NCBI GenBank assembly: GCA_028708815.1
Contig: JAQVYB010000013.1
Span: forward strand, 1 to 42,903
Source of the DNA: Kiritimatiellia bacterium
GTDB lineage: Bacteria > Verrucomicrobiota > Kiritimatiellia > RZYC01
Length of the DNA: 42,903 nt
Direction of reading: 5' to 3'
Shown here: positions 5,013 to 38,354 of the stretch, piece by piece
How positions within the stretch are numbered: the stretch's first letter is position 1
Layout: the number at the start of each line of letters is the position of its first letter
The notes under the pieces: generated by a model
What the model was told of the DNA's origin: nothing
The model's database searches: none
The model's input: only the letters and a program-made list of their open reading frames with translations
Program-made: the position numbers and the translations under genes

Positions 5013-5891
5013 TTACGCAGATGGCATGTCCGATATCAACCCCTTATCGGATGCCATTGGAAAAAGCTCATCAAATTGTATACGATCAAAAACCTCGAGA
5101 TTCCCTCCGCGCGTGGCGTTTGCAATTAAAACACCTTTCCGATCTGCCTCCTTTTTAGCACGTTCATATGCACGTATATGACGATTTATATTAGGTGGAT
5201 ATATACTCTTTGAATTCCCCCTGTAATTCGGATGAAAGTGTCCCCGCCCATGCATCATATCAATACTCACCGGCTCGTCACCTTCAGCCGGTCCAGTATA
5301 CCCGGGATAATTGCAATCTACCCCGACAAGATAAATTTTTTTGAATCCCATATACAATGCAAACTGAAGGTGGTTGTACGTACACGTTGACCCCCAGTAT
5401 ATTCCTCTAAAGGGATCCCGCCCGAAAGAAGGAACCCAGTCATCTGATACCTCTTCCCATATATACCGATAATACAGGGCATTCTTAAAGTATCCACCAT
5501 TCCTCAACACCTCTTGATGAAGAAAGACACAACTATTCTCAAGATGCATTCGGATGTTTTCAGAATTCTGCATAACATAAGATGTTTCTACTGCTGTATA
5601 AAACGTAGGCCGCCAATCCGTATCAGAAAACGCAAGCCCGATATCATTCGATGCAAATGTAAGTTCCTCTTTTAGTTTATCCAAATCCTCAACACACAAA
5701 CTCGGCCCGTTCCCCACAATAAAACACCGCCCCCCTGGATATTTATTTTTCAAGGCATACAAACGGCGATCATTGGTTGACAATGGCAACCCAATCCTGG
5801 ATGCAAAATGTGATACCCCCATATAGCGAGCCAGGAAATTGTAGTATCCGCCACAAATCGAATATATTGTGTCAAGGCAGCTTCTAAGCAT
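5013..5891 (-). CDS. DUF115 / 6-hydroxymethylpterin diphosphokinase MptE-like (Maf-related) protein
   Basis: GGRCFIVGNGPSLCVEDLDKLKEELTFASNDIG and KIYLVGVDCNY motifs of DUF115/Maf-type proteins. Confidence 0.8.
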   Translation of the reverse strand: MLRSCLDTIYSICGGYYNFLARYMGVSHFASRIGLPLSTNDRRLYALKNKYPGGRCFIVGNGPSLCVEDLDKLKEELTFASNDIGLAFSDTDWRPTFYTAVETSYVMQNSENIRMHLENSCVFLHQEVLRNGGYFKNALYYRYIWEEVSDDWVPSFGRDPFRGIYWGSTCTYNHLQFALYMGFKKIYLVGVDCNYPGYTGPAEGDEPVSIDMMHGRGHFHPNYRGNSKSIYPPNINRHIRAYERAKKEADRKGVLIANATRGGNLEVFDRIQFDELFPMASDKGLISDMPSA

Positions 5892-5914
5892 TTGATTTGT
5901 GGCCCATAAAGAAA

Positions 5915-7816
5915 TTACAGTTCATTATACTCATTTAATTTGATCAAAGCTCGGCAAGCCTCTGCATTATTATTCAAATGCCCGCTCCATATTTCCGGAA
6001 CCCAGGAAAATTGTACTTCAGATAGCACACAAAGCACTGAATCCCAATCAATCTCTCCTTCCCCTATCTGCAACCCTTCGCCATCAATCCCTTTTGCATC
6101 CGATATGTGCACATGGCGGACGTATGGAAGGCATTTGCACACGTAATTTTCCAATAACTCTCCGCGATAATTGCAATGCATTTGTGCATGGGCCAAATCC
6201 AACGTCATTCCACAACCAGCATATTCGCATAACCATGAAAAATCTTCGGCATAGGCAAACAGATTCTGAAACCACTGACCGCCCAGATACCAGGGACGGG
6301 GCGGCAAATTTTCCGGAAGTAGCTGACAGTCACGCCCTTCAAGACGCATAAAATTCTCTGCGGCTACAGCAAGTAACTCCGACCGTTTTTCGACGGGCGC
6401 ATCCATGCTCATCCCTCCAAGGTGAAAAACAATGCCGGGTTGACCACTAAAACGCTTGCCCAACTCAGCCGCCTTATCAATCGTGCGCTGGAATATTTGT
6501 ATCGTATGCTCGCGCTGCGATAACTCATCGGCACTCAAATCAAGCAGGCGCCCGGCGTCAAATTCCGGAGCATGGACAATTAAACGCTGCGAATATCGAT
6601 TTTGTAACATGCCGGCGTCGAAATTCAAATCACTCGTGCTGAAATGCAACTCTACCAACATTGGATTGTGCTCAAGAACAGTGTCAAGGTCATGAAACCG
6701 GGCTTTCAAACCCCACGGGTGCTTGAATAAAAAGGTCTTATTTTTTTCTTTCTGGACAGGTGGCGTATCAAGATCCGCATCTACGAATACATCGCCTTTG
6801 CATATGTCGCGTTCTAGCGTTCTGCCCAGCAAGTCGTTGTATCGCTGCGGAGACAGCCCCTTGCCCGGACCTTTGACCTCCACCATATCAGATGTTACAA
6901 CAGTACCCTTTATACAATCACATGATGCAATCAAACTTTTCCGAAACACCTGTTGGTTGAGCTTCTCCATCGTTGACATGCCTTTCTCATGTCTCACAAG
7001 TGATTTTTCTGCATTACGAATATCGCGGACAAGACGTGCAAAGCCACTCGGCTCAAGACTGGTCGCATGATCAGGCCCGACCAAAGTCCTATCAAGCGTC
7101 AGGTGTTTTTCTATAATGCATGCTCCCAGCGTTAATGCGACCAATGGCATGGCAATGCCCCGCTCGTGGCTACTGTAACCGACCGGAACTCCATACTTTT
7201 TCAGCGTTTCGATATACCGCAAGTTCAGATTCTCAAATGGCGCCGGATAGGTGCTTACACAATGCAATATAGCGACAGCATTAGTTTTCTTCGACAACCA
7301 GCGCATTGTATAGTCAATCTCTTCTGCAGTCGCCATTCCCGTTGAAAGAATTAATGGTTTGTTCGATTCAGCCAGCTTTTCAACCAAAGGCATATTAACC
7401 AAATCGGCGGAGGCCACCTTGTACGCAGGAGTTTTAAGTTCTTCAAGAAACCTGAAACTTTCTTCATCAAACGGCGTACACAAAAACGTTATTCCATTGT
7501 CTTCACAATGCTGCTGAATACAGCGAAAATCATCCAGTTTTAATTGTGAGCTCTGCAATTGAGGCAACAGGTACTGAAAAGCCCATTCGGCCAAATTTGG
7601 ATTGTTCAGCAATTCCTCCGGATAGAGTTTTTCCAGATCGCGCAATTGAAATTTAACCGCATCGGCACCCGCCTTGACAGCCGCGTCAACCAACTGTAAC
7701 GCCATTTCCAATGCTCCATTATGATTAATCCCTGCCTCGGCAATGATATAGCACGGAGCGTCACCTCCAACCAGCCGACCGCCAATCTTCATTTGCTTCT
7801 GCTCGTTATCACTCAT
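5915..7816 (-). CDS. neuB: NeuB-family nonulosonic acid synthase with SAF domain, fused to a C-terminal xylose-isomerase-like TIM barrel
   Basis: CYIIAEAGINHNGALEMALQLVDAAVKAGADAVKFQ...IIEKHLTLDRTLVGPDHATSLEP (NeuB), KSLIASCDCIKGTVVTSDM (SAF), then ~270 aa with VFHLGGMS...LLPENLPPRPW...GMTLDLAHAQMH...HVHISDAKGIDGEGLQIGEGEIDW...PEIW. Probable start MSDN, overlapping the neuA stop (ATGAGTGA). Confidence 0.9.
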   Translation of the reverse strand: MSDNEQKQMKIGGRLVGGDAPCYIIAEAGINHNGALEMALQLVDAAVKAGADAVKFQLRDLEKLYPEELLNNPNLAEWAFQYLLPQLQSSQLKLDDFRCIQQHCEDNGITFLCTPFDEESFRFLEELKTPAYKVASADLVNMPLVEKLAESNKPLILSTGMATAEEIDYTMRWLSKKTNAVAILHCVSTYPAPFENLNLRYIETLKKYGVPVGYSSHERGIAMPLVALTLGACIIEKHLTLDRTLVGPDHATSLEPSGFARLVRDIRNAEKSLVRHEKGMSTMEKLNQQVFRKSLIASCDCIKGTVVTSDMVEVKGPGKGLSPQRYNDLLGRTLERDICKGDVFVDADLDTPPVQKEKNKTFLFKHPWGLKARFHDLDTVLEHNPMLVELHFSTSDLNFDAGMLQNRYSQRLIVHAPEFDAGRLLDLSADELSQREHTIQIFQRTIDKAAELGKRFSGQPGIVFHLGGMSMDAPVEKRSELLAVAAENFMRLEGRDCQLLPENLPPRPWYLGGQWFQNLFAYAEDFSWLCEYAGCGMTLDLAHAQMHCNYRGELLENYVCKCLPYVRHVHISDAKGIDGEGLQIGEGEIDWDSVLCVLSEVQFSWVPEIWSGHLNNNAEACRALIKLNEYNEL

Positions 7817-8510
7817 GGTGGTCTCCTGCACAAAGGCGCTGCATTATTTTCTCTGCTTCAATAAAATCATCTTCAGCATCAATATCAACAGCACTGTCTG
7901 GAGGCATTTCGTACAACACAATACGCCCTCCGAGGCGATTCTGAAACTGCCGTAGAACCCTCGGTTTAAACACATAAATTGAACCATTCTCGTGATACAA
8001 GGGAGATAACTCCTGATGACGGGGACGCGCTCTATAGTCATAGTTTAACGAGACAGCTTTCCCTTCAGACTTTTTCCAAAAAAACTTCAGAATGGGAACA
8101 ACGGAAAGCAAACTGTCTGCCTGACTCTTTTTAAGCATGGCAACAGCATCATCAACATCACTTCTCCGCCTTACTGGCGAAGTACACTGAAGAAAAACAA
8201 CAATATCCGGCTCATACCCCTCTTGTTCACAAAGCCGCTCAAGAACGTGAGACAAGGCAGCCTCAGAAGTTGCCGAATCCCCGCTAATGACCTCGGGCCG
8301 CTTGATCACCTCTGCGCCCCACGTGCACGCAACATTGGCAATTTCATCATCGTCCGTTGAAACAATGACACGGCTTACTGCTTTGGCCACAAGGGCCGCC
8401 TGAATAGTCCAGGCAATCAGTGGCTTGCCGGCAATCATTCGAATATTCTTGCGAGGAATTCCTTTTGATCCTCCACGTGCAGGGATAATTGCCAGAACCT
8501 CTTCTTCCAT
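7809..8510 (-). CDS. neuA: Acylneuraminate (nonulosonate) cytidylyltransferase
   Basis: VLAIIPARGGSKGIPRKNIRMIAGKPLIAWTI...STDDDEIA...LQCTSPVRRRSDVDDA. Confidence 0.92.
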   Translation of the reverse strand: MEEEVLAIIPARGGSKGIPRKNIRMIAGKPLIAWTIQAALVAKAVSRVIVSTDDDEIANVACTWGAEVIKRPEVISGDSATSEAALSHVLERLCEQEGYEPDIVVFLQCTSPVRRRSDVDDAVAMLKKSQADSLLSVVPILKFFWKKSEGKAVSLNYDYRARPRHQELSPLYHENGSIYVFKPRVLRQFQNRLGGRIVLYEMPPDSAVDIDAEDDFIEAEKIMQRLCAGDHHE

Positions 8511-8620: not shown

Positions 8621-9937
8621 TTACAATCTCAAATCAATCGACTTTTTCACCGGGCTCCCAGTTCCCTTTTCCTCTTCACCCTCATCCGACACCCGATCTC
8701 CGGTCTCAGGCACCCGACATCCGACATCCGACCCCTGATCTCCAACGTCCGACCTCCGACCTCCGACTTCCACCTTCGGCGCCCCTCCCCACAATCTTTT
8801 CACGTCCACAAAACATCCATATACACCATTCGCTTCCTTCGGCTCCCATAGCCAGATTCCTGATTTGTCGGTATCATACATATCATATACCGCTAACAGG
8901 CGCCCCGGTTCGACCTCGGTAATATCACAGTAACCCGATGTTTTCACATCAGCCGAAGTCAGATTCAATGGGCTACCCCACGTATGGCCAGCATCCGTAC
9001 TGAAATACAGAATGTTTCCGGGGCGTCCCGTTGCCAGAACCAAGACGCCATTGCTCATCAAAACCAATTTAGGCATAACGCCCTTGATCTTCAATCGCTT
9101 GTGTTCCCACGTCACTCCACCATCCCTGCTACGGGCTTCCAGCAAATCAGCCATCGCCTGTGGTTCTGCATAGATACTTTTCGTAATATCATGCCCCGTT
9201 CGCATGATACATAATAATTCTCCATTGGGCAGAATAACCATCGCAGATTCATTCGGACCCTCTCGTCCCCATGGCGAGTCAGATGCATCAGCAATCGTGG
9301 CGAGCACCTCCCAAGTCAAACCACCATCTTTTGACTTGGCGCATTCTACATGCCTTTTGCTCCCCGTTCTTTCAACATAGCCATCAATAAGTAATTCCCC
9401 ATCAGCAAGACATAGCCCGCGCGTGCTTGTTCCTATTTTTCCAGGAAATTTCATAAAACCGGACTCTGGTTCAGCGCCAGCCTTTCCCCAAAAGGCCTTT
9501 TTAATGGGTTTCGACGCTTGATGAAACCATAAATAATCATCTCCCATATTAAATAATCCACAACGTGTTGATGACTCTGGCGGATTCCATGGTGTTTCCT
9601 CTACTCTGTATAAATCGTGCCCAGAGATCCAAGTTTTTCCTCCGTCCCGAGAAATGATGGGACTGCTGCTTAATGAAGCATCATGGCGCGTTCGTGACAA
9701 GCCGTCGCCAATCGTAAAGAAATAGCAATGAATCTCACCACTTGGAAATTGCAGCAAGAAAGAATGTGATGCAAAGCCCCAACCCAATGATTTCGCACTT
9801 TGCACAATCGGGAACTCACTGCTTTTTGTGACAGCAACACCACTTAAGAGCGAAATATTTCGCGTTACGCATCCTGAGTTAAAAAGAATGAAAAGGATCA
9901 ACAAAGTGATGCTTATACGCATCGCATTTATTCGCAT
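8621..9937 (-). CDS. Sialidase/neuraminidase-like BNR-repeat lipoprotein with heptapeptide-repeat C-terminal tail
   Basis: Signal peptide with lipobox ILFNSGC; Asp-boxes SRDGGKTW, SKDGGLTW, SRDGGVTW, STDAGHTW; tail RRSDVGDQGSDVGCRVPETGDRVSDEGE encoded by 7-bp repeats. Confidence 0.82.
   Translation of the reverse strand: MRINAMRISITLLILFILFNSGCVTRNISLLSGVAVTKSSEFPIVQSAKSLGWGFASHSFLLQFPSGEIHCYFFTIGDGLSRTRHDASLSSSPIISRDGGKTWISGHDLYRVEETPWNPPESSTRCGLFNMGDDYLWFHQASKPIKKAFWGKAGAEPESGFMKFPGKIGTSTRGLCLADGELLIDGYVERTGSKRHVECAKSKDGGLTWEVLATIADASDSPWGREGPNESAMVILPNGELLCIMRTGHDITKSIYAEPQAMADLLEARSRDGGVTWEHKRLKIKGVMPKLVLMSNGVLVLATGRPGNILYFSTDAGHTWGSPLNLTSADVKTSGYCDITEVEPGRLLAVYDMYDTDKSGIWLWEPKEANGVYGCFVDVKRLWGGAPKVEVGGRRSDVGDQGSDVGCRVPETGDRVSDEGEEEKGTGSPVKKSIDLRL
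8676..8765. repeat. 7-bp-period repeat array, CCGACNT flavour (AGGTCGG on minus strand), inside the sialidase-like ORF
   Basis: ccgacac ccgatct ccggtct caggcac ccgacat ccgacat ccgaccc ctgatct ccaacgt ccgacct ccgacct ccgactt read in strict 7-bp phase. Confidence 0.9.
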
Positions 9938-10003
9938 GTCGTCAAACACACATTTTTGCCATTTCGGCATTAGGAAATATATGCCTCTTCTTAGTTGCAT
10001 AGT

Positions 10004-22174: not shown

Positions 22175-23482
22175 TCACGCAATCGCCTGCACGGTCGCCA
22201 CACATGGCCAAACCGTATCGGCCCAATTCATGTGGTCAGCAGTTATTTCCAGCGCGAGTGCGTTATCAACACGAACGAGGCATTGCTTGTTTTCAGTATC
22301 GCTTATAATGACGGTTACCGTGTGGTTTCCCATCTTCAAATTCATACCCAGAATATCAATACGGCAAAGGATGGTCTGTCCGTTTAACCCATGCAGCGAA
22401 ATAGTACCATTCCCTTGACCGATTAAATTGGCTACCGGCCTGATTTCCTGATTGTAAATATACACTGAGAGATTTGCATCTGTTACGTTACTACACATCG
22501 TTACTAAAACTTCTAATATACAAGGCTCACCGCTTTGCAGCTTCTGGACGGATGTTCCGTTGTGATTAAAAAGCTGTACCGAATTGATTATGGCCCCCCC
22601 CGTTCCCGACAACTTTCTTTCTGCGGCAGAATAATGGTTTAAATATCTGCCTATTCCTGCGGCCGTATCAGCCCCATGGTATTCGGCCACCCCGTGATTC
22701 ATCAGCATAATGGAGTTAGATATACGCGAAACCATAGGCATTGAATGAGAAACGAAAATAACCGCGCTTCTCCGCATAATTTCGGACATACGATTCAAGC
22801 ATTTTATCACAAACCCCATATCTCCGACAGCCAACACCTCATCAATAATCAGCACATCTGGATCCATTTGTGCAGAAACGGCAAAACCAAGGCGCACCTT
22901 CATGCCGGAGGAATAATTTTGAACAGGCATATCGATGAATTCTTTGATCTCGGCAAAATCAACAATCGCATCAAATTTCGCATCGATTTCCTTCTTGGTG
23001 AAGCCCAGCACCGCACCTTTGTTGTAGATGTTTTCGCGTCCAGTCAAAATGGGATTAAAGCCGGCCCCCAGTTCGATCAACGCTCCAATGCGTCCACGCA
23101 TTTCGATGCGCCCCTGATCAGGTTTGATAAGTCCATTGAGCATTTTGAGCAGGGTGGATTTCCCGGCGCCGTTGTGTCCGATCAGCCCCAGACATTCCCC
23201 GCGTTTGAGTTCGAACGAAATATCTTTAACCGCCCAGAATTCGTCGCGGCGGAGCCGGGGTTCGTAGTTATTTGTTCTTGGTTCTTCGTTTGTGGTTCTT
23301 CGTTCGGAGGACGTTGTTTGTTGTTTTTTGCCACAGGTCAGCTCTGTCCATATATCCTGCGCCCCGTAGATCAGGGAGCGTTTGAGGGATTTGCAGAATT
23401 TCTTACTGACTCCTTCAACCCTTACCAGGGTTTCGGAGTCAGTAGGTTCTTGGTTCGTTGTTCTTGGTTCGTTGTTCGACAT
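22175..23482 (-). CDS. wzt: Polysaccharide ABC transporter ATP-binding protein (Wzt-like, with C-terminal domain)
   Basis: GLIGHNGAGKSTLLKML (Walker A), NYSSGMKVRLGFAVSAQMDPDVLIIDEVLAVGD; Wzt_C-like C-terminus; contains repeat-encoded NNEPRTTNQEPTDS and SSERRTTNEEPRTNNYEPR. Confidence 0.92.
   Translation of the reverse strand: MSNNEPRTTNQEPTDSETLVRVEGVSKKFCKSLKRSLIYGAQDIWTELTCGKKQQTTSSERRTTNEEPRTNNYEPRLRRDEFWAVKDISFELKRGECLGLIGHNGAGKSTLLKMLNGLIKPDQGRIEMRGRIGALIELGAGFNPILTGRENIYNKGAVLGFTKKEIDAKFDAIVDFAEIKEFIDMPVQNYSSGMKVRLGFAVSAQMDPDVLIIDEVLAVGDMGFVIKCLNRMSEIMRRSAVIFVSHSMPMVSRISNSIMLMNHGVAEYHGADTAAGIGRYLNHYSAAERKLSGTGGAIINSVQLFNHNGTSVQKLQSGEPCILEVLVTMCSNVTDANLSVYIYNQEIRPVANLIGQGNGTISLHGLNGQTILCRIDILGMNLKMGNHTVTVIISDTENKQCLVRVDNALALEITADHMNWADTVWPCVATVQAIA
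23262..23330. repeat. 7-bp-period array (GTTCNTN) inside the wzt ORF, first coding segment
   Basis: Minus strand: gaacgaa gaaccac aaacgaa gaaccaa gaacaaa taactac gaacccc. Confidence 0.85.
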
Positions 23483-23688
23483 ACTGTTCTTGGTTCGCTA
23501 AATCGTTCGTGGTTCGCTAAGTCGTTCGAGGTTTGTCGTTCGTGGGAAATGTTCGTTGTTCGTCGTTTTTCGTTCGTCGTTCGGGGAAAATTGTTCGGGG
23601 AATTTGTTCATTCAGGGTTCAACAACGAACTACAAACTAAGAACGAAGAACAAAGAACGAAGAACTACGAACAAAGAACGACGAACTC
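23440..23688. repeat. 7-bp-period arrays (GTTCNTN then, after an orientation flip near 23610, GAACNAN) spanning the wzt 5' end and intergenic region
   Basis: tacaaac taagaac gaagaac aaagaac gaagaac tacgaac aaagaac gacgaac (~23630-23686) preceded by GTTCNTN copies in the opposite orientation. Confidence 0.85.
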
Positions 23689-24064
23689 ACATCGGTTTCG
23701 AATGAGTTTTCAGATATTTAATCAGGCCACCGATTTTGGCGTTAATGCTACCCGCTAATTGGTATAATTCTTGAAAGGTCTGTTCCGTTAGATAGTTCTG
23801 ATCTAAGGCAATATACAATTCGCTCTGTACTTCGGTGCACGACCTCTGCGCATACCCTAAAAAGCGAATAAATTCCGGATTGCTTCCCGCATCGTATCCT
23901 TCAGCAATATTATGCATGACCGACCCTGCAGCACGCGTAATTTGATCTTTTAAGCCCCAATCTTTTGCAAAATTCGCTCGGCGAGTCAGGCTATAGATTT
24001 CCCGCGTTAAGATTCGAGCATCCTGCCAACCTTCTATTTCCTCAAATTTTCGAATCGAACCCAT
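23687..24064 (-). CDS. Four-helix bundle protein (S23 / 23S rRNA-IVS-encoded family)
   Basis: EGWQDARILTREIYSLTRRANFAKDWGLKDQITRAAGSVMHNIAEGYDAGSNPEFIRFLGYAQRSCTEVQSELYIALD, signature of the family. Confidence 0.93.
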   Translation of the reverse strand: MGSIRKFEEIEGWQDARILTREIYSLTRRANFAKDWGLKDQITRAAGSVMHNIAEGYDAGSNPEFIRFLGYAQRSCTEVQSELYIALDQNYLTEQTFQELYQLAGSINAKIGGLIKYLKTHSKPM

Positions 24065-24079
24065 AAATCAAAACCTACC

Positions 24080-24116
24080 ACAATCCAAGAACCAAGAACT
24101 ACGAACAAAGAACCAA
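24080..24116. repeat. 7-bp-period repeat array (AACCAAG/AACTACG)
   Basis: atccaag aaccaag aactacg aacaaag aaccaat. Confidence 0.75.
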
Positions 24117-24311
24117 TGCCTTCATCTAACATAATAAATACTTTTTTTTTCTACCACCCGCTACGCTTCCGCCGTCGCTCTACGAGCTATGGCGCGACAC
24201 GAGAGGGCACGGAGGGCACGGAGATCCATTAGTGCGATTATTTGTTCTTCGTTCGTTAAAGCTGATTCGTTGGTCGTGGCTATCCTCCCCAACCAAGAAC
24301 TGAACACATCA

Positions 24312-25709
24312 TTATGTACAGGCAAAATAGCCACCGGTCTTTTTACTTCCGCGACGCTCGATTTTTCCTTCATAAATGAGCTCAGCGATATACCGATCGA
24401 CGCTCCGTTCCGGGATTTTCAATTTCTCAACGATCATCTTTCGCTGTATTCCCGGAAGTTCATCAATTATTCTCAGAACATCTCCATTTAACGCGCCATT
24501 TAACGCGCCATTTAACGCGCCATTTAACGCGCCACCGCTTGACTGCTGTAATTCGCCATTCTGTTCCGGCAACATGAATTTGATACGAAATCCTCCCGAG
24601 AAGTTTTCAAACATCGGCTCGGGCAAACCCGCCTCTCGGCAAAATTCCAGTATGCGATGGATTCCGCTTCCATATCGCTCGATTAGACCTACGTCATAAA
24701 ATATCTGGGCTATCAGTTTGTTTCGGGGTTTGGACGCGTGCTCTGGATCAAGCAACTCTCTAACCTTCATGTTATAAGGTAGAAATCCGGGACTCCACAC
24801 CTGCAAAGCATCTTCAAATATTTTTATCTGGATATCAGCGGTGTCGCCATAATCTCGATGACAAATGGCATTAACCACTGCCTCACGCAAAGCAGCGAGG
24901 GGATAATCCCAAATTTCTTTGCGCTGTGGGGCGCCAGTCATTTCAAACCGGACATGCATGTTTTTTTTGATGAACTCAACGGTCTCCTCTACCTGGGCAA
25001 TAAGAGAACCGTCAATGATTCGATTGTCCATGATGTGCACCTTCTCACGCAAACGGCCAGCATGCACCACCGCTTGTGTTAATGGCGATTGAGGATTTTC
25101 CCCGAAAAGCAGAATCGCGGCGCGAGTAATTTCATGTTCTGATTTGACAAGCTCCAACTTCATCAAAACTTGCCAAGGGTCTTCTTTCCCTGAGAAGGAA
25201 CGGCGGCCTTGCGCCGTGGCTTGATGCATATATCCCAGCACACCTTCGAGGTTAATATCCCCCTTGCTCTTTCCCTGGACGACTACCGCATCCATGCTCG
25301 AACCGGTACTGTGCATATGCATTTCCGCAATTTCGGATGGAGTCATCTGACGAGTTGTGCTTCCTGCTCGCCGATAGCAACGTCCTCTCGTAGCAATCGG
25401 CTTTAACGGAAACTCAGGAACAGATAATAGGAGTACCTCCCCCTCTGGCATTAAAATCCGTTCTGCATCAGGGATAACCGAAGGCTCGGTAGCAACAGCA
25501 ATTCGATTCACATAATCGCGCAACACCTCTTTACCGAAACTCTGCCCGACAACCAGGCCTTGATCGTTTACTCCGATCAAGATCATTCCACCACGGGTAT
25601 TGGCAAAAGCAACCGCTGTTTCAATGACCTCTTTCCCAAATGCTCCTTTGAATTCAAGCACCTCGGATTCGCCCTGTTTTATGATGTCTGCAATCCTATT
25701 CATGCCCAA
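24312..25709 (-). CDS. AlbA_2 (Schlafen-type) DNA-binding / ATP-binding RecG-like transcriptional regulator
   Basis: ESEVLEFKGAFGKEVIETAVAFANTRGGMILIGVNDQG; ALREAVVNAICHRDYGDTADIQIKIFEDALQVWSPG; C-terminal wHTH-like segment. Confidence 0.88.
   Translation of the reverse strand: MGMNRIADIIKQGESEVLEFKGAFGKEVIETAVAFANTRGGMILIGVNDQGLVVGQSFGKEVLRDYVNRIAVATEPSVIPDAERILMPEGEVLLLSVPEFPLKPIATRGRCYRRAGSTTRQMTPSEIAEMHMHSTGSSMDAVVVQGKSKGDINLEGVLGYMHQATAQGRRSFSGKEDPWQVLMKLELVKSEHEITRAAILLFGENPQSPLTQAVVHAGRLREKVHIMDNRIIDGSLIAQVEETVEFIKKNMHVRFEMTGAPQRKEIWDYPLAALREAVVNAICHRDYGDTADIQIKIFEDALQVWSPGFLPYNMKVRELLDPEHASKPRNKLIAQIFYDVGLIERYGSGIHRILEFCREAGLPEPMFENFSGGFRIKFMLPEQNGELQQSSGGALNGALNGALNGALNGDVLRIIDELPGIQRKMIVEKLKIPERSVDRYIAELIYEGKIERRGSKKTGGYFACT
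24486..24533. repeat. 12-bp perfect tandem repeat, 4 x ATTTAACGCGCC, encoding (GALN)4 in the AlbA_2 protein
   Basis: Direct reading; protein GALNGALNGALNGALNG. Confidence 0.97.
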
Positions 25710-25744
25710 CTCAAATGCCGGTTCTGTCTATGAAGTATAATATA

Positions 25745-25786
25745 CAACCAGAAACTACGAACCATAAAATGAACGACGAACGTTGT
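25745..25786. repeat. Short 7-bp-period repeat tract (AACCAGA/AACTACG/AACCATA...)
   Basis: aaccaga aactacg aaccata aaatga acgacg aacgttg. Confidence 0.6.
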
Positions 25787-25789
25787 CCG

Positions 25790-26642: not shown

Positions 26643-26858
26643 TGCAGTTGCAGGTTACAGGTTGCACGTTACAGGTTGCGGGGTGCAGGTTCTTGGTTCA
26701 TTGGGTACTGGTTATACGTTACGGGTTGCAGGTTCTTGGGTCTTGGTTCGTGGGTCTTTGTTTTTGGTTCTTATGTCTAATGTCTTTGGTCTTGAGTCTG
26801 ACCATTGGTTCTTGGGTCTAAGGTCTATGGTCTAATGTCTTGAGTCTAACCGTTGGTG
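26643..26858. repeat. Long 7-bp-period array (about 29 degenerate heptamers, GGTTRCA -> GGTTCTT -> GGTCTAA flavours)
   Basis: caggtta caggttg cacgtta caggttg ... cttgggt cttggtt cgtgggt ... ctaaggt ctatggt ctaatgt cttgagt; phase held with a few 1-bp slips. Confidence 0.92.
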
Positions 26859-30170: not shown

Positions 30171-30457
30171 AGGACGCTTTTCTTTTGATGCGCTCTGAAT
30201 TGATGCCTATCTATTCCGAAAACTGTGGAAAAATACGCGATTGTTTTTTTGTCCAGATCTGGAGATTTGATTAAAGCCCCACGGATTTGGCTGTTTGTGT
30301 AACAGGCTTGAATAAGGCCCACATCCTTTTTTGTCCCCCGGTCCATCACGCGAGCGATGATGAATGGAGCATTTCGGTCCATGTCCAGTTTGTCAAAAGC
30401 AACATCCCAAAAGAGGGACGGTGAGAGTTGACTTTTTATGGATTCCTTTTTTTTCAA
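30152..30457 (-). CDS. DUF6922-like small protein, probable partner of the AbiEii-type protein
   Basis: LSPSLFWDVAFDKLDMDRNAPFIIARVMDRGT; TTG start overlaps the neuB2 stop (TTGA); 3' end overlaps the AbiEii start. Confidence 0.7.
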   Translation of the reverse strand: MKKKESIKSQLSPSLFWDVAFDKLDMDRNAPFIIARVMDRGTKKDVGLIQACYTNSQIRGALIKSPDLDKKTIAYFSTVFGIDRHQFRAHQKKSVLCTWSH

Positions 30458-31371
30458 TTCAGGCGTCTCAATTTTGCTGCCACTGCTTTTTCGGAGTCGA
30501 ACACTTTTTTCACACCATCGCCGAGGGCTTCCTGAATGATGCGGATGTCGCGCACGAGACGGATCAGTCCGGAGGGTTCCACGGAGGCGGCCTGGTCGGT
30601 GCCCCACATGGCGCGATCCAGGGTGATATGGCGTTCGACCAAACAGGCCCCCAGCGTTACCGCCGCGAGAGTGGCCTGCAGTCCCACCTCGTGTCCGGAA
30701 TACCCCACCGGGACGTTATATTTTTTTTGCAGGGTTTGAATGACATTGAGGTTCAGTTCGCCGACCGGACAGGGATACGTGCTGGTGCAATGGGTCAGAG
30801 CAACCCGGGACCGCCAGGCGTCTGCCTGGCCTTCTTCCTCTTTGCCGACCAGACGGTCGGCGGTCCCGGCCAGGCGTTGCACGGCGGCCTCAATCTGTTC
30901 GACGGAGGACATGCCGGTGGAAACAATCAAGGGGCGCCCGGTCTGTTTATAACGATCCAACAAATCCATATCCGTGATACAGGCCGAGGGCACCTTGTAC
31001 GCCATCAGATTGAAATGCTCTTCCATGAGTTCCACGGAGGGAATATCCCAACAGGAGACAAACCAGTCGATTTTCTTTTCGGCACAGTAGCGTTCGATTT
31101 TCTGATAGTCTTCGACGCCGAACTCCATCTTCCAGCGATACTCCAGATAGGAAATATAGCCCCAGGGCGTTTCCCGCATGCGGCTTTTCTGCTCTTCGGG
31201 CACACACACATCCGGATTGCGTTTCTGAAATTTGACGGCATCACATCCGGCCACACAGGCGACATCAATCAGCTTTTTGGCCGTTTCCAGGCTGCCGTTA
31301 TGATTGATGCCTATCTCGGCGATTACATAGCAGGGATTTCCCGTGCCGATTGTTTTATTTCCGATTTGCAT
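30454..31371 (-). CDS. neuB: NeuB-family nonulosonic acid synthase, short form without SAF domain
   Basis: CYVIAEIGINHNGSLETAKKLIDVACVAGCDAVKFQKRNPDVC...VERHITLDRAMWGTDQAASVEPSGL; ends at ~305 aa. Confidence 0.92.
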   Translation of the reverse strand: MQIGNKTIGTGNPCYVIAEIGINHNGSLETAKKLIDVACVAGCDAVKFQKRNPDVCVPEEQKSRMRETPWGYISYLEYRWKMEFGVEDYQKIERYCAEKKIDWFVSCWDIPSVELMEEHFNLMAYKVPSACITDMDLLDRYKQTGRPLIVSTGMSSVEQIEAAVQRLAGTADRLVGKEEEGQADAWRSRVALTHCTSTYPCPVGELNLNVIQTLQKKYNVPVGYSGHEVGLQATLAAVTLGACLVERHITLDRAMWGTDQAASVEPSGLIRLVRDIRIIQEALGDGVKKVFDSEKAVAAKLRRLN

Positions 31372-31433
31372 GTTATTTACCCTGTTTTTGTTCCTTTTAT
31401 TCCACCACCCGTTTGGGGAAGAGGATTACCGCA

Positions 31434-31515
31434 GACCATAGACTATAGACCCTTTGGTGATAACCATAGACTATAGACCGGAGACGAAGAGACCATAGAC
31501 CAAAGACGATAGACA
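31434..31515. repeat. 7-bp-period repeat array (AGACCAT/AGACTAT)
   Basis: agaccat agactat agaccct ... agactat agaccgg agacgaag agaccat agaccaa agacgat. Confidence 0.85.
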
Positions 31516-31523
31516 GACGCGGC

Positions 31524-31754
31524 CCTCTTTTGCGTTCCCTGCGTTCTTTTGCGGCTGCTCCTGGCATGGAGGCCCATGCCGCTCCCTAATTGCGAGGTCT
31601 TATTCGTTGCTTTCTTCATTCGTTGGGATCATTCCTCTACGGGCCAGATGCCCGCGGGCCGCGGGCGCTCCCACTTGCCTCAAGCTCTGTGGGCTCTGTG
31701 TTCTCCAGTGAACAACGGGAACGAGTGGTTAAACTCTTTTTTCTACCACCCGCT
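31524..31754. repeat. Copy 2 of the ~235-bp mosaic repeat block
   Basis: Same orientation and near-identical to 26912-27152, differing by small substitutions/indels. Confidence 0.92.
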
Positions 31755-31757
31755 GCG

Positions 31758-32447
31758 CTAGAGGACACGGAGGGCGCTGCGGGCGCGTTCCAGATCGTCG
31801 GGCGTATCGATGTCCAGCGATGCCTTTTCATCCATGACGAAGGCTCCTGTTTTTTCGGGCAGGAGGGTTCCCCGCTCCAGCACAATGCGGGAGCGGCACA
31901 GATAGATCGCCCCATTGATCTCATAGGCCGGCGGAAAATCCTGACGGCGCAGGTAGCCGGATGGAATGGACATGAAGGGTTGGAGGCGTCCTTCTTCATC
32001 TATTTTTCTCGTTAGGAAGGGATGCGTTTCGGCTTCGCATATACTGACGACGGCATCGGCTTTTTTTTCGTGCAACAGTTGAACGGCGGCATCAATATGA
32101 CGGGCCGTTCGAAATGGAGAGGTGGGCTGCAGCAGGCATGCGAAATCCGGCAAGGCTCCTTCATCCTGTTCGATCCACTGCAACGCGTGCTGAATTACGG
32201 GAATATGGGCGGAGCCGTCACGCGCCAAATTTTCCGGGCGCATAAAAGGCACCTCCGCGCCGGATGAACGGGCTACATCGGCAATCTCTTCATCATCCGT
32301 GGAGACCAGCACACGATCAATCGATTGACTTTGCTGCGCGGCCTCTATGGTCCAGGCAATAAGTGGTTTTCCTCCCAGATCCACGATGTTTTTCCGGGGA
32401 ATCCCTTTGGAACCGCCACGGGCGGTGATTAAACCCAGAATGCTCAT
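31758..32447 (-). CDS. neuA: Acylneuraminate cytidylyltransferase, second copy
   Basis: ILGLITARGGSKGIPRKNIVDLGGKPLIAWTIEAA...STDDEEIADVA...LLQPTSPFRTARHIDAA. Confidence 0.92.
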   Translation of the reverse strand: MSILGLITARGGSKGIPRKNIVDLGGKPLIAWTIEAAQQSQSIDRVLVSTDDEEIADVARSSGAEVPFMRPENLARDGSAHIPVIQHALQWIEQDEGALPDFACLLQPTSPFRTARHIDAAVQLLHEKKADAVVSICEAETHPFLTRKIDEEGRLQPFMSIPSGYLRRQDFPPAYEINGAIYLCRSRIVLERGTLLPEKTGAFVMDEKASLDIDTPDDLERARSALRVL

Positions 32448-32638
32448 TTGCTGGATTCTCTAACACATCTATTCTGCATGGCCTGAGGCTCCGGTGGCTT
32501 GAGCTGCTGAAGCAGATGGGATGTTTTATCAAGCCATTCCACTTTTTGCGTGAAGGATAAATGGGATGCGTCGCGCAGGTTCATGCGTTCAACGGTGTCC
32601 CACGAGGCATATGCCCAGCTTTGCCTGGTCTCCGTCAT
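32444..32638 (-). CDS. Small helical protein paired with a nucleotidyltransferase
   Basis: MTETRQSWAYASWDTVERMNLRDASHLSFTQKVEWLDKTSHLLQQL; ATGA overlap with the upstream NTase stop. Confidence 0.65.
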   Translation of the reverse strand: MTETRQSWAYASWDTVERMNLRDASHLSFTQKVEWLDKTSHLLQQLKPPEPQAMQNRCVRESSK

Positions 32639-33138
32639 GATGGCGATGCCTGCTCCTGAGTTGTAAGACATGAAATATCGAGCAGATCCTTTGGACGACC
32701 AGCCTTTTTTTTCATTTCCAGAAGCGTGTTTTTCCGAATAATCGGAACACCAATCCCATTCAAATCGAAAACAACCGCATTCCGATATTCTTCATCGAAA
32801 TCAAATGGCTCCTTCGCAAAGAGATCCACCACGGTATCCCGATGAACATCACTGATCATGGAAAAAACAACCATTCCTTTGTTCTCTATCCATTCCCTGC
32901 GGTTTCTTTCATCAGAAAAATCAACCGCTTGTACCGGAACGCGCGGATAATAATTCAGCCCTGTTAAAACATCCATTGCACGCTTGATATTCTCCATTTC
33001 CAGATCCAACACGATATCCACATCGTGCGTCAAACGTACATACCCGTGAGCAACCACGGCCAATCCACCAACCACAAGGTAACGAACACTCGAACGATTG
33101 AAATCGCCGAAAATCTGTTCTAGCGTTGCTTTCTCCAT
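32635..33138 (-). CDS. Nucleotidyltransferase-superfamily protein
   Basis: VRYLVVGGLAVVAHGYVRLTHDVDIVLDL. Confidence 0.85.
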   Translation of the reverse strand: MEKATLEQIFGDFNRSSVRYLVVGGLAVVAHGYVRLTHDVDIVLDLEMENIKRAMDVLTGLNYYPRVPVQAVDFSDERNRREWIENKGMVVFSMISDVHRDTVVDLFAKEPFDFDEEYRNAVVFDLNGIGVPIIRKNTLLEMKKKAGRPKDLLDISCLTTQEQASPS

Positions 33139-33242
33139 AACAGGCTGTATTTCGCGGCAGGCTTCGCCCCTGTCAAATCCCGGCTGGAATTCTCCCTGCT
33201 CCGTTTCTTGTAGCGTTTATCAGCAACTGAACACGTTCCTTG

Positions 33243-33725
33243 TCAGATCAGCTTCCGAATCAGTGGATTGTTCAGAAGCGCTTCCAGACGGGCGCGATAC
33301 TTTTCGGCCTGCGCCAGACGCTGCTTCAGAAAGGCCACTCTTTCGGAGTTTTCCCTCGATTCTTCCAGTAGACTTCTGCTGCGTTGAATCTGATATTGTG
33401 CGGAAACCAATTTTTTGTTGACGGAGGCCAGCAGCCCATTGTTCACGATCTGGCTTATGTCGGTGATGGCCTCGTAATAGTCTTTTCGATCGCCCTTCAT
33501 CCAGACTTTGTGGAGGACACCCCAGCTTTCGAGTTGGCGGCAGGCAATGCTTGCGCTGGCCTTGCTGATGCCGAGGCTCTCGGCAATGACATCCAGGCAG
33601 GCAGGTTCGGGTGACATGAAGAGAAGCATGTAGATTTGGCCAAAGAGACGGTTGAATCCGAAGGTCTGCGCGGTACGCCCCCCCGCCTCAATCATTTCGT
33701 ATGTAGCACTTTCCAAAGGCTTCAT
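33243..33725 (-). CDS. GbsR/MarR-family transcriptional regulator
   Basis: LFMSPEPACLDVIAESLGISKASASIACRQLESWGVLHKVWMKGDRKDYYEA. Confidence 0.87.
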   Translation of the reverse strand: MKPLESATYEMIEAGGRTAQTFGFNRLFGQIYMLLFMSPEPACLDVIAESLGISKASASIACRQLESWGVLHKVWMKGDRKDYYEAITDISQIVNNGLLASVNKKLVSAQYQIQRSRSLLEESRENSERVAFLKQRLAQAEKYRARLEALLNNPLIRKLI

Positions 33726-33882
33726 GACAGATTCCGATCATTTAGAACTTTCTAAACATAGCGAATGGCGGGGGGTTTTGTCAATGGCCTCTGTGGAGAA
33801 ATTTGCGTGTCGGGATGAATTGAAAAAACAGGACTTCTCCATGCAATCCGTGGTGAGCCACACGGGGGCAATCCGATGGTTT

Positions 33883-33940
33883 TTCCCAACGAATGGGGAC
33901 CGCAACGAATGGAGCGGATGATGTTCCCAACGAATGGGGA
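33883..33940. promoter_or_regulatory. Cluster of CAACGAATGGRG motifs upstream of the GbsR-type gene; candidate operator or repeat fragment
   Basis: TTCCCAACGAATGGGGA twice (33883, 33924) with a third partial copy GCAACGAATGGAG at 33902; internally inverted (CCCA..TGGG). Confidence 0.45.
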
Positions 33941-33955
33941 ACTGAGCGGGTACCA

Positions 33956-35662
33956 TTACGGTTCCGAAGTTTTCGCTACAGCGGTTTGCGGGTGGAGTCG
34001 CGCCAAAACATGCTCCATCACCCGGTGAATGCTGGTGGTTGCCGCAAACTGTTGGCAGGCTCGCATGCGCATGGCGTTTCCAACATCCTCGCGGGCGGAA
34101 GGCGAGATGACCAGTCCTTCAAGCCGCTTCGCGTAGGCATCGAGGTCACGCTCGGAGAGGGCGTGCGGTGGTCCGATCAATGCGGCGGCGATGCTTTCGG
34201 CATGGGCATTACCCCACTTCATGGCCACCACTGGAAGTCCACAGGCCATGGCTTCCATCACGCTCTGCGATCCACCTACGGGAAACTCACAGGCGTATAT
34301 ATTCAACGTTTTCAGGATGGCGGCGGGCATCAGATGGCGACCGACAAAGCGAACGCGGCCTTGCACGCCTTGCTGCTGAAAGCCTTTCATTTTGTCCGGA
34401 AGGGGGCCGCAACCGATCGGCACAAACCAAACACGGGGGTGCTTTTTCATCATTCCAGCGATCAGTTCCAGGTATTCCGACGAGAGGCGTTTATCCAAGT
34501 GGTTACTCAGGGTGCCAACCAGTATGGCGTCCTCCGGTATCCCCAGGCGGGAGCGGGACACCGGGGGTTGGCCGTCGATCACGTCAAAATCCACGCCTTT
34601 GGGCAGCACAATGCGCTCGCCGTCCGATGCGTCCCAATTGCTTTCACGTTCCAGATTTTCCGGGTTATCAACAAACATACAATCCAGACCCGCCCCATAA
34701 TAGCTGCTGCCGATATGGATCCCGGCCTTCACCGGAACGGCGGCGGCATAGGCTGCGATCCAGTCGATGGGACAGGCCATCCCGCTTTGAAAGAGAGCGA
34801 CATCCACCTGGTCGGCGTCCAGGCGCATGGCCAGTTGTCGACCGGTCTCGATGCAGGACCATTTTCTGGACATCAATACGACCGGCACATTCAATTGTTT
34901 CAACGCATTCATGGTGTGGGCCCCGGTGATTTCAGAGTGCCCGCTCACGCACCCGAACGGGAACCCCGGGTTCTCCCGGGCGGAGAGGTTTTCAGAGACA
35001 TACACACTCACCTGAAATTGATTTCGATCCAGATGACGGGCATATTGAATCACCCGTCGGGTATACGCCACCACGTGATCCACCAGATTCGGCACCACCA
35101 AGGCGACGCGAATAGATTCCGAAGAAGACCGTGGAGCCCGCCGCGTTTTTCTGGTCAATCCCGAGTCCATGGCGGCCACCGCATAGAGTTGGCCTGTTTC
35201 CCGCAGGATATTCGGAGATCGGATCAGTTCAAAACAGGCCAACCCATCGAGGATATAGGCGGCCGTCATGGCTTCCATCCCCAGGTTGGGGTATCCGAGA
35301 CGGAAGGCGTCCCGGGCAAAATGGTAACATTCCCAGGCAGCGGTTTGTTCCTGTCCGGTCTGCTGAGCCAACCAAACGATATTGGCAATCACCGGCAACG
35401 GAACGAGGCCGAACAGGCGTCGACTATTGATCAACTGAGTGAGGGCGGCCAGGGGCTCACCCTGCTGGTAGAGGGCCCCTGCACGAAATACAATACCCGC
35501 CACGCGCTTTTCATCGCTTTGCTGGATCAGGAGGCTTTGCGCAATGGATGCGAGATTGTGCCCCTCATATGAACGTATCAGATCATCCAGCAGGAGCAGT
35601 TGTGTTCCGGTCGCCATAGATACCCTTGCACCCTCTTCCCCTTCTTCGAAAACAAGCCTCAT
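33956..35662 (-). CDS. Glycosyltransferase (GT-B/GT4-like C-terminal half) downstream of fliD
   Basis: VALVVPNLVDHVVAYTRRVIQYARHLD; VGTLSNHLDKRLSSEYLELIAGM; FPVGGSQSVMEAMACGLPVVAMKWG. Start could be the internal MATGTQ. Confidence 0.8.
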   Translation of the reverse strand: MRLVFEEGEEGARVSMATGTQLLLLDDLIRSYEGHNLASIAQSLLIQQSDEKRVAGIVFRAGALYQQGEPLAALTQLINSRRLFGLVPLPVIANIVWLAQQTGQEQTAAWECYHFARDAFRLGYPNLGMEAMTAAYILDGLACFELIRSPNILRETGQLYAVAAMDSGLTRKTRRAPRSSSESIRVALVVPNLVDHVVAYTRRVIQYARHLDRNQFQVSVYVSENLSARENPGFPFGCVSGHSEITGAHTMNALKQLNVPVVLMSRKWSCIETGRQLAMRLDADQVDVALFQSGMACPIDWIAAYAAAVPVKAGIHIGSSYYGAGLDCMFVDNPENLERESNWDASDGERIVLPKGVDFDVIDGQPPVSRSRLGIPEDAILVGTLSNHLDKRLSSEYLELIAGMMKKHPRVWFVPIGCGPLPDKMKGFQQQGVQGRVRFVGRHLMPAAILKTLNIYACEFPVGGSQSVMEAMACGLPVVAMKWGNAHAESIAAALIGPPHALSERDLDAYAKRLEGLVISPSAREDVGNAMRMRACQQFAATTSIHRVMEHVLARLHPQTAVAKTSEP

Positions 35663-35707
35663 CCCATCACGAATGCGACGATCCCTTTACCCTGAAGACC
35701 CTGTTGG

Positions 35708-37180
35708 TTAACCGAAATTCGCCTCGAACCAATCCAGTTCGGAATTGAAGGTTGCTTCGGCTTCTTCCATAGCTGTGAAGGTTTCGATCAAGCGATCCTG
35801 ATAATCATCCAGGCTCTCCTCCTCCTCTGTGATTTTTTCCGAGATTTCGGTCAGTTTATCCTCGAGGGCGGCGATACGCCGGGCGATTTCGCCGGTGAGG
35901 GATTGGCTCATGGAGTTGGAATAGCTGTAGAAGTCGCTCGCCAGTCCGTGCACATATCCTTCGGTTGAATCATACACACCCCGGAACAGCTGGGCCGTCA
36001 CATCAAATTCATTTTCCAGCATGTAGTCCAGCTTGTCTTCATCACTGAGCACCAGCACATTGTCCTCGCCCGCCGTCCAGATACCAATATCCTCCAAACT
36101 GTCCGCAATGCCGGTCCTCCCATCATAGGTGTATGATGCATTGGTGGCGTTTAAATAGGGATACTTACTGGCCGTGGCCTGCAGGCGGATATTCCGCTCC
36201 ATCGCCGCCACCGAGCTATCATTATACAATTCCCCCAGCGCGGTGATCGATGCCCCGGATGAGGTTTCGCCGCTTAGCGGCTTTTGGGTAAAATACCGGA
36301 TCTTTTCGGCCAACGCATTGTACTTCTCCATATAGTCGAGAATGGCTGCCTTGGTGTCCTCTGTGTCGTGATTAACGGTTAACCGAACCGCAGACGTGGT
36401 GGTCTCCTCTTCCAAATCCAGGCTCACTCCGGTAATCACATCGCCAATCCCGGTGTTGCTGGAACGGGTCACGGCGATGCCGTTCACGGTAAAGGAGGAA
36501 TCCATGGCCTCCACCAACTCATTCACAAACCCCCCGGACGAATTCAGGACCCCTATACTTTCGAGCGGGCCTCCGATCACATCCGACATGTTTATTTCGG
36601 TGGATCCCGTATTCTCCCGGGAGACCACCAGCCGCCCGTCCAGAATCGACGCAGATACTCTATTCGCCGCACTCATGGACGTGGCTGCCGTATTGATTTT
36701 TCCGACCAGCGTATTCAACGTTTCCGTGGATCCAATGGTTACAGTTTGCCCTTCAATGGTGAATGACGCCCCTTCGGAAAGGATCCCGGAGGCCACGAGA
36801 TCGGTATTGGCCGTGCCGCCCGGAACCAGGTCGGACGCCTTACTGCCCCCCACGCTCTGGGACTGCGCCAGATTGTCAATCAGGATGGTATAGACATTCG
36901 GTACAGCCGAGGAGGAGGCTGTGGCCGTCAATTTTGTTTCATCCGACGAGGTAGCGGCCATCAGGTTCCAGGTTTCCCACTCTCGCAAGGTATCCAGAGA
37001 ATCTGTCAAATCGCTCGATAATGTGGCGATTTCATTCCATGCCTCCAAATCATAATTGACCTCCGTCTGTTCTTCCTCAAACGAGGTCAGGGTATAGCCA
37101 CGCGCCGCCACCAGTTTGGCAATGGTGTCCTCAATATCGATTTTCGATTGCAACCCGGAAATGGTAACTGTTCCCGACAT
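35708..37180 (-). CDS. fliD: Flagellar filament capping protein / hook-associated protein 2
   Basis: MSGTVTISGLQSKIDIEDTIAKLV; EKYNALAEKIRYFTQ; C-terminal TEISEKITEEEESLDDYQDRLIETFTAMEEAEATFNSELDWFEANFG. Confidence 0.92.
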   Translation of the reverse strand: MSGTVTISGLQSKIDIEDTIAKLVAARGYTLTSFEEEQTEVNYDLEAWNEIATLSSDLTDSLDTLREWETWNLMAATSSDETKLTATASSSAVPNVYTILIDNLAQSQSVGGSKASDLVPGGTANTDLVASGILSEGASFTIEGQTVTIGSTETLNTLVGKINTAATSMSAANRVSASILDGRLVVSRENTGSTEINMSDVIGGPLESIGVLNSSGGFVNELVEAMDSSFTVNGIAVTRSSNTGIGDVITGVSLDLEEETTTSAVRLTVNHDTEDTKAAILDYMEKYNALAEKIRYFTQKPLSGETSSGASITALGELYNDSSVAAMERNIRLQATASKYPYLNATNASYTYDGRTGIADSLEDIGIWTAGEDNVLVLSDEDKLDYMLENEFDVTAQLFRGVYDSTEGYVHGLASDFYSYSNSMSQSLTGEIARRIAALEDKLTEISEKITEEEESLDDYQDRLIETFTAMEEAEATFNSELDWFEANFG

Positions 37181-37332
37181 GACCTTTTCCTTTCAGCCCG
37201 TTCACATTAAATCCGCAGTCACTTCACCTCATCAACGGCATCTTCTGCCGCCAGGTGTTGCCCACTCACTCATTAGCGGCATATAGCACCTGCTCCTCCG
37301 GGCCTCACGGCCATGTAGCAGGATCCTTGCCA

Positions 37333-37364
37333 CAAAAAAGAGTCCGACCGAATCGGCCGGACTC
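37333..37364 (-). terminator. Rho-independent terminator after flagellin gene
   Basis: Minus strand GAGTCCGGCC-GATTC-GGTCGGACTC (10-bp stem with one G-U) followed by TTTTTT. Confidence 0.92.
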
Positions 37365-37391
37365 TCAGAGAAAGGAAGTGCTTCAGAACGC

Positions 37392-38354
37392 TTATCCGAG
37401 CATCTGCAACACGCCCTGCGGCAAGGCATTGGCCTGAGCCAGCATCGCGGTACCCACCTGCACCAAAATCTGGTACTTCGAGTACTGCGTGGTTTCATAG
37501 GCCACGTCCACATCGCGAATCCGACTTTCCGTGGCACGCGCATTCTCTTCGTAGCTGCGCAGGCCGCTCAGGGTCTGCTCCATACGCCGAAGTTCCGCAC
37601 CAAGGACCGCTCGTTTCGAGCTGATATAGTCAATGGCAATATTCATTTTGTCTACGGCACCCTGGGCAACCGACTGCGTGGAAATGCTGAGATTCGCACC
37701 GCAGATCACACTGGCCCAGCGTACCGCCCTGGCACCCGTACCGGAACCAAGCAGCGTCATATTGACCGAACCATAGCTGTAGTTCACGTAAGAGCCGATC
37801 ACGGCAAAATTGGTCGCCGTCAGATTCAGTTCATCCTCCTTAAACACCATATTGCTGTCCGGACCGACCTGCAGGTAGACGCTGCCCGCCTCCACCCCAT
37901 CACCCGTCATGGTGGCCACGCCATTGCCGCCGCGGAACAGATACAGGCTGTTGAACTTGCCTGCCGCCGTCGCACCGCTGGTGATGCGCGTGATTTCCTT
38001 CTGCATCTGGCCAAACTCCTTCTGCAGATTATCACGGTCCACCTGGCTCTTGGTACCATCATTGGCCATCACGGCAAGTTCTGCCATACGGCCCATCATG
38101 TCGTGTATTTTCTGCATCCAGGAATCGGCTGTTTGCAGGTAATTGATCTTGTTTTCAACGTTGGATGCCGCTGCCGCCGTATTGCGATACTGCGTACGCA
38201 GGCGTTCGCTCATGGCGATACCGGAAGGATCATCGCCGGCATTGTTGATACGGAGTCCCGATGACAGCTTGGACATCGAGCTGCGCAAACTGGATACGTT
38301 TGCGTTGTAGTTTTTCCAAACAGAAAAGGCTGGAACGTTATTGTATACTTGCAT
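37392..38354 (-). CDS. fliC: Flagellin
   Basis: SSLRSSMSKLSSGLRINNAGDDPSGIAMSERLRTQYR N-terminus and ENARATESRIRDVDVAYETTQYSKYQILVQVGTAMLAQANALPQGVLQML C-terminus; SD AGGAGG before ATG. Confidence 0.97.
   Translation of the reverse strand: MQVYNNVPAFSVWKNYNANVSSLRSSMSKLSSGLRINNAGDDPSGIAMSERLRTQYRNTAAAASNVENKINYLQTADSWMQKIHDMMGRMAELAVMANDGTKSQVDRDNLQKEFGQMQKEITRITSGATAAGKFNSLYLFRGGNGVATMTGDGVEAGSVYLQVGPDSNMVFKEDELNLTATNFAVIGSYVNYSYGSVNMTLLGSGTGARAVRWASVICGANLSISTQSVAQGAVDKMNIAIDYISSKRAVLGAELRRMEQTLSGLRSYEENARATESRIRDVDVAYETTQYSKYQILVQVGTAMLAQANALPQGVLQMLG

Follow-up and report, generated by a model that had tools for sequence, protein, structure and literature searches.

A heptanucleotide repeat array read as the C-terminal tail of a sialidase-like lipoprotein in a Kiritimatiellia genome, and the association of heptamer arrays with PF05635 genes

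In REP/RAYT systems, inverted copies of a short repeat, which also occurs scattered over the genome, lie on either side of one protein gene. The TAACTGA heptamers of Beggiatoaceae and other bacteria are dispersed across phyla, and a minority of them overlap the ends of open reading frames (ORFs), with in-gene arrays that include one at the C terminus of a glycosyl hydrolase (MacGregor 2015, PMC4679880). The heptamers GGGAATC and GGGGA(C/T)T of Xanthomonas and Nostoc are degenerate and genome-wide, with enrichment in noncoding DNA and around stop codons (Rehm et al. 2015, PMC4692102). The 23S rRNA intervening sequence (IVS) of Coxiella carries an S23p ORF of PF05635 type between inverted repeats, with 2 or 3 tandem GACAGAT heptamers directly upstream whose number varies among strains (PMC4990558). 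Borg tandem repeats, finally, are perfect, have units that are multiples of three in ORFs, and create low-complexity protein segments (PMC9879509).

Here we analyze a 42,903-nucleotide stretch of a Kiritimatiellia draft genome (contig JAQVYB010000013.1; "the window" below), in which a sialidase-like gene has a heptamer array in its 3'-terminal part:

8621..10000, minus strand: ORF of a BNR/sialidase-like lipoprotein, 459 amino acids (Pfam BNR_2/BNR)
8686..8776, minus strand: degenerate heptamer array of 13 in-register units, coding-strand consensus AGGTCGG (CCGACCT on the plus strand)
8624..8788, minus strand: 55-residue tail (amino acids 405 to 459), missing from all ten aligned homologues

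The ORF matches Pfam BNR_2 (3.7e-10) and BNR (5.7e-9), and a likely start at 9922 and a lipobox, LFNSGC, can be read from the sequence. A PDB search with the protein recovered weak sialidase-like matches only, and AlphaFold run on the protein alone gave no usable model (pLDDT 32). TRF run on the window reported period 7 at 8714-8775, and the lag-7 identity of the array reaches 50/70, compared with a maximum of 37 in 60 simulated sequences of 42.9 kb. The first-pass annotation of this DNA had described twelve CCGACNT-type heptamers translated in frame. We count 13 units, of which the first (AAGGTGG) is weak, so that 12 is a fair count, and the heptapeptides are exactly those that it gave, with the ORF ending in ...DVKRLWGGAPKVEVGG RRSDVGD QGSDVGC RVPETGD RVSDEGE EEKGTGSPVKKSIDLRL*; positions 8621-8780, where it placed the feature, comprise the array and the stretch up to the stop codon.

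We found homologues of the sialidase-like protein in sixteen other genomes of the class, the nearest of them in other families at about 40 to 53% identity, and aligned ten. These end near window residue 404 (DVKRLW), from an exact match to a few dozen residues off, and none of the ten same-class homologues carries the tail. The closing codons of homologue L005, RRW-TGA (AGG CGC TGG TGA), align to RLW-GGA (AGA TTG TGG GGA) in the window. Because the homologues stop just before the tail, with the L005 stop exactly at the window GGA, the tail reads as lineage-specific, and by the L005 alignment the point where array-related sequence begins would be the ancestral stop position. The homologue ends and the L005 stop bear out the earlier proposal that the repeat had lengthened a real gene at its 3' end and so placed a charged tail behind the propeller, and the homologue alignment that had been suggested as a check places the start of the tail after about residue 404. 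Orthologues with other heptamer counts were not found, since no other searched genome has the gene with the tail, and no close orthologue without the array provides an empty site at which to place an insertion. The gene next after the sialidase-like gene in the window is presumably neuA, as its sequence reads, whereas in four homologous loci (L002, L003, L004, and L006) we take it to be a PseB/CapD-like dehydratase gene, so the array also sits at a change of neighbours.

Two further sites in the source genome carry the AGGTCGG/CCGACNT unit, in both cases a short way past a stop codon: one (contig C14) is 8 bp downstream of a FabH-like gene, and the other (contig C210) is about 50 bp downstream of an ATPase-like gene. 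As three exact units, CCGACNT is present in 21 of 146 genomes of the class; as four exact units, it is found in at least 117 stretches, drawn from named genomes that span more than ten phyla, with Xanthomonas, Sphingomonas, Bacteroidota, Verrucomicrobiota, Planctomycetota, Desulfobacterota, Cyanobacteria, Chloroflexi, Actinobacteria, Acidobacteria, Patescibacteria, and others among the matches listed. About half of the CCGACNT arrays are intergenic with a downstream bias, and the rest lie inside ORFs of uncertain reality; by simple ORF calls rather than curated genes, the intergenic arrays adjoin 60 downstream versus 36 upstream gene flanks (control, 47%; p = 0.003). The sialidase array, with a period of 7 well above chance and a unit found at several unrelated sites and in other genomes, thus fits the dispersed heptamer arrays of bacteria. 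It resembles the TAACTGA system in being dispersed, in spanning multiple phyla, and in lying in some cases at ORF ends, but most TAACTGA repeats lie immediately before starts, and the sialidase unit is a different one that is stop-free in both orientations. The Xanthomonas and Nostoc heptamers are likewise degenerate, dispersed, and near stop codons, with a different unit (PMC4692102).

The window holds further heptamer arrays built of other units, among them the following:

26643..26849, minus strand: composite array of GTTACAG and then GTTCTTG and GGTCTAA-type units, upstream of a Wzm-like gene
31433..31514, plus strand: AGACCAN array, upstream of the second NeuB-like gene

A 280-kb sample of the source genome outside the window contained no heptamer array at or above 40/70, a contrast biased by the choice of the window for its arrays. 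Elsewhere, 14 CATCCGG/CATCCGT units form a near-perfect array at L205 (142-238; G012:C168), on which a higher-order period of 21 bp is superimposed.

Three results bear on what the tail means. First, pure CCGACNT/AGGTCGG units are free of stops in all six frames, and arrays of the composition of the sialidase array are open in 73% of shuffled-unit draws, compared with 23% for random DNA; with a stop-free unit, an open frame through the array therefore needs no selection and is weak evidence of function. Second, deviations from the consensus comprise 3 synonymous and 17 nonsynonymous changes in the true frame, compared with 8/11 and 5/15 in the other frames; over these 20 substitutions the true frame does no better than the others, and no protein-level constraint on the tail is seen. 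Third, changes of -2, -1, +1, and +2 units move the end of the protein from residue 459 to 426, 448, 433, and 455, respectively, leaving the sialidase domain untouched and altering the protein only beyond about residue 415. For the earlier statement that such an array could shift frame by slippage, no consequence is supported: the domain stays intact and no on/off switch results.

Since an open frame is expected, constraint is lacking, and slippage spares the domain, the tail is best read as a tolerated by-product; the array probably sits at a gene boundary where the stop was lost, and the tail probably has no function or switching role of its own. A dispersed, degenerate heptamer array would have come to occupy the boundary after the sialidase domain, where the homologues stop, and the original stop would have been lost at the junction, either with the arrival or growth of the array or through a single-base change, for example from TGA to GGA. 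Because the units of the array are stop-free, translation would then continue through it until reaching a stop that happens to lie 62 nt past it, and the protein would gain 55 charged residues of low complexity. We infer both this order of events at the stop and the production of the tail. The tail would thus be a tidy example of repeat DNA leaking into protein.

Where such an array came from is a separate matter, on which another gene in the same window bears:

23690..24064, minus strand: PF05635 (23S_rRNA_IVP/S23, four-helix) gene, Pfam 1.3e-31, with heptamer arrays by both ends
23621..23687, plus strand: GAACNAA array that follows the PF05635 stop codon directly
24085..24116, plus strand: second GAACNAA array, a short distance upstream of PF05635

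The two GAACNAA arrays adjacent to this gene have the same orientation. We examined PF05635 loci from the window (23690-24064) and from three further sets (L251-L280, L311-L350, and L391-L420). Across 57 genomes of the class, heptamer arrays were found at 33 of 70 PF05635 loci and at 5 of 70 PIN-domain loci in the same genomes; of the 65 array regions at PF05635 loci, 47 lay within 200 bp of the gene, compared with none of the 6 at the PIN controls, and periods of 5, 6, and 8 to 13 gave little or nothing. When 30 PF05635 loci from other phyla, all in named genomes, and two additional control families (Y1_Tnp and Schlafen AlbA_2) were added, arrays within 200 bp were present at 42 of 100 PF05635 loci versus 2 of 130 control loci (Fisher, 6e-16), and at none of the 30 Y1_Tnp loci. 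The association of PF05635 genes with heptamers is strong, period-specific, and found in many phyla. In the open-access literature, only the Coxiella paper proved relevant to this combination (PMC4990558), and to our knowledge the association is unreported as a general rule; for GGGAATC, the link found here goes without mention in the portions of Rehm et al. 2015 (PMC4692102) considered.

The flanks of PF05635 genes also have a consistent polarity. Of the 18 loci with arrays on both sides, 15 have flanks that are more similar in inverted than in direct orientation; upstream arrays are G-rich on the coding strand of the gene in 27 of 30 cases, and downstream arrays are C-rich in 28 of 34. The median score for inverted similarity between flanks is about 25 for PF05635, compared with 11 for both PIN and AlbA_2 and 22 for Y1_Tnp, the last serving as a positive control for mobile elements. 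PF05635 genes are co-directional with both neighbours at 58 of 87 loci, versus 15 of 46 for PIN (p = 2e-4). At an acidobacterial locus (L392), five GAGAGTC units, the gene, and four GACTCTC units follow in order between a gene that reads as a sensor kinase and one for an NtrC-type regulator; in a gammaproteobacterium (L403), a PF05635 gene preceded by about nine GTCTGAA units separates metK from ahcY. In Xanthomonas sp. Leaf148 (locus L405, 1330-1990), the single PF05635 gene found is situated between accB and accC; upstream of it are GGGAATC-type heptamers, and downstream of it are inverted ones of the ATTCCC type. GGGAATC arrays occur at dozens of sites in Leaf148, and three-unit runs in none of the 17 other genomes searched. 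Swapping arms between the orthologous loci L320 and L347 gave -32.5 and -45.4, compared with -44.6 and -38.5 for their own arms. An all-against-all search for near-identical PF05635 copies with different flanks recovered mainly orthologous loci and overlapping stretches, together with one same-genome pair in Nostoc.

These patterns suggest, by analogy, that PF05635 genes and their heptamer arms form a RAYT/REP-like element family; the likeness is that of a gene inside inverted copies of a dispersed repeat, while the REP/RAYT gene is a Y1 transposase and PF05635 is not. Such an element would consist of a PF05635 gene (IVP/S23, Avd-like) enclosed by heptamer arrays in inverted orientation, usually placed inside an operon and oriented with it, with a unit that varies from locus to locus yet agrees between the two arms. 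Its arm sequence would scatter as solo arrays, such as the one in the sialidase tail, and the 23S rRNA IVS would be a special case among the landing sites of the family; the Coxiella IVS lies inside rRNA, while the loci considered here are mostly between protein genes. That bacterial heptamer arrays are largely dispersed arms of this kind, with the IVS as one landing site, is an idea to which we give somewhat less than even weight. The association offers a handle on why heptamers, among unit lengths, recur dispersed in unrelated bacteria, and on the purpose of the widespread PF05635/S23 genes of unknown function.

For the sialidase array itself, an origin from a PF05635 (IVP/S23) element, as its solo arm or footprint, scattered as REP is with RAYT, is a reasonable but tentative proposal, less likely than not, that is compatible with the by-product reading, as it concerns only where the array came from. 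In its favour are the proximity and inversion statistics above, the PF05635 gene amid heptamer arrays in the same window, the AGGTCGG units in the PF05635 arms of two loci (L346 and L318), a CCGACNT array flanked by two PF05635 genes in another genome (G041), and the Leaf148 case, where a single PF05635 gene in GGGAATC arms accompanies dispersed arrays of that unit. Against it, no PF05635 remnant and no inverted partner array lie near the sialidase array, which no S23p gene adjoins as one does in Coxiella; the nearest PF05635 gene is about 15 kb away, and the PF05635 arms found in the same genome use GAACNAA rather than CCGACNT. Moreover, a PF05635 gene is present at only 5 of 146 CCGACNT-array loci, and within about 300 bp at 2, a rarity that weakens the claim that every array derives from such an element.

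An alternative to the by-product reading is that the array acts as RNA or DNA, through 3' structure, G-rich folding, an RNase III site, or protein binding, with the tail incidental. The preference of arrays for the 3' sides of genes and the ability of the arms of PF05635 loci to pair (z, -2.6 to -8.1) are in line with such a role, as is the description of quadruplexes formed by G-rich Xanthomonas and Nostoc heptamers near stop codons (PMC4692102). The sialidase array, however, has mostly GG runs and no partner arm at its site, and intergenic CCGACNT arrays downstream of genes are G-rich on the coding strand in 24 cases and C-rich in 25, so a strand preference of the G-quadruplex type is not seen; we regard this explanation as unlikely. 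Less likely again, and by a good way improbable, is that the tail is a selected disordered C-terminal extension of the kind proposed for Borg repeat proteins. The tail is charged and of low complexity, its setting is one of surface glycans, and in both systems nucleotide repeats yield low-complexity protein, but Borg repeats are perfect and in multiples of three whereas the sialidase units are imperfect and 7 bp long, the true frame lacks constraint, and the extension is missing from all ten homologues.

A contingency locus, in which 7-bp slippage would shift the frame and switch the protein or its end on and off, has in its favour that 7 is not a multiple of 3 and that heptanucleotide phase variation is known in Escherichia coli neuO and in Haemophilus. 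We consider it very improbable here, as the array follows the domain, gain or loss of units alters only residues beyond about 415, and the degenerate units reduce slippage; phase variation was rejected on the computed frames, in which a change in unit number does not switch sialidase expression. An assembly or frameshift artefact, conceivable for a draft of 272 contigs, is the least credible reading given the degenerate unit, the position of the array well inside a 42.9-kb contig, and an ORF unbroken through the conserved domain.

Heptamer arrays also encode parts of other proteins, in the window within a Wzt-type gene:

22178..23482, minus strand: Wzt-type ABC ATPase gene, with the N terminus and one loop encoded by GAACNAA arrays
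23259..23306, minus strand: heptamer array inside the Wzt gene (period-7 scan)
23446..23583, minus strand: Wzt 5'-end heptamer arrays, opposite in orientation to the array at 23621-23687

A relative of the same family (L192) has a Wzt gene without the loop array and with its own GAACNAA array at the 5' end, and L192 has a further, different array (CGCATCC) within the ATPase domain of a seemingly truncated copy; L192 and L202 (G002:C180) are two partial Wzt copies in that genome, in one of which a CGCATCC/CGAATCC array replaces a conserved ATPase stretch. In other proteins, from named genomes, an array follows a beta-lactamase-family domain at the C terminus (L106), sits at the N terminus of an HlyIII protein (L130), or lies around the boundary of two domains in an NAD kinase (L135). 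Array-coded protein ends are of an already known kind (MacGregor 2015, PMC4679880). At a further locus (L349, 2-1192, minus strand), a UDP-GlcNAc 2-epimerase gene that adjoins a PF05635 gene has an array-coded N terminus, TTPRSTLQAPRSTLK.

Wzm- and Wzt-like genes, adjacent in two relatives (L206 and L208), are 2.3 kb apart in the window. The gap (23483-25789) contains heptamer arrays and the PF05635 gene as well as a gene of the AlbA_2/Schlafen type; close to the 3' end of the latter, at 24484-24534, a perfect 12-bp repeat, CCATTTAACGCG, is present in 4.2 copies and encodes repeated GALN. The regions 5013-8510 and 30454-38354 of the window contain what we take, from names read off the sequence, to be two NeuA/NeuB-like pairs, Maf-like genes, flagellin, and FliD, a gene content that suggests a putative flagellin glycosylation island.
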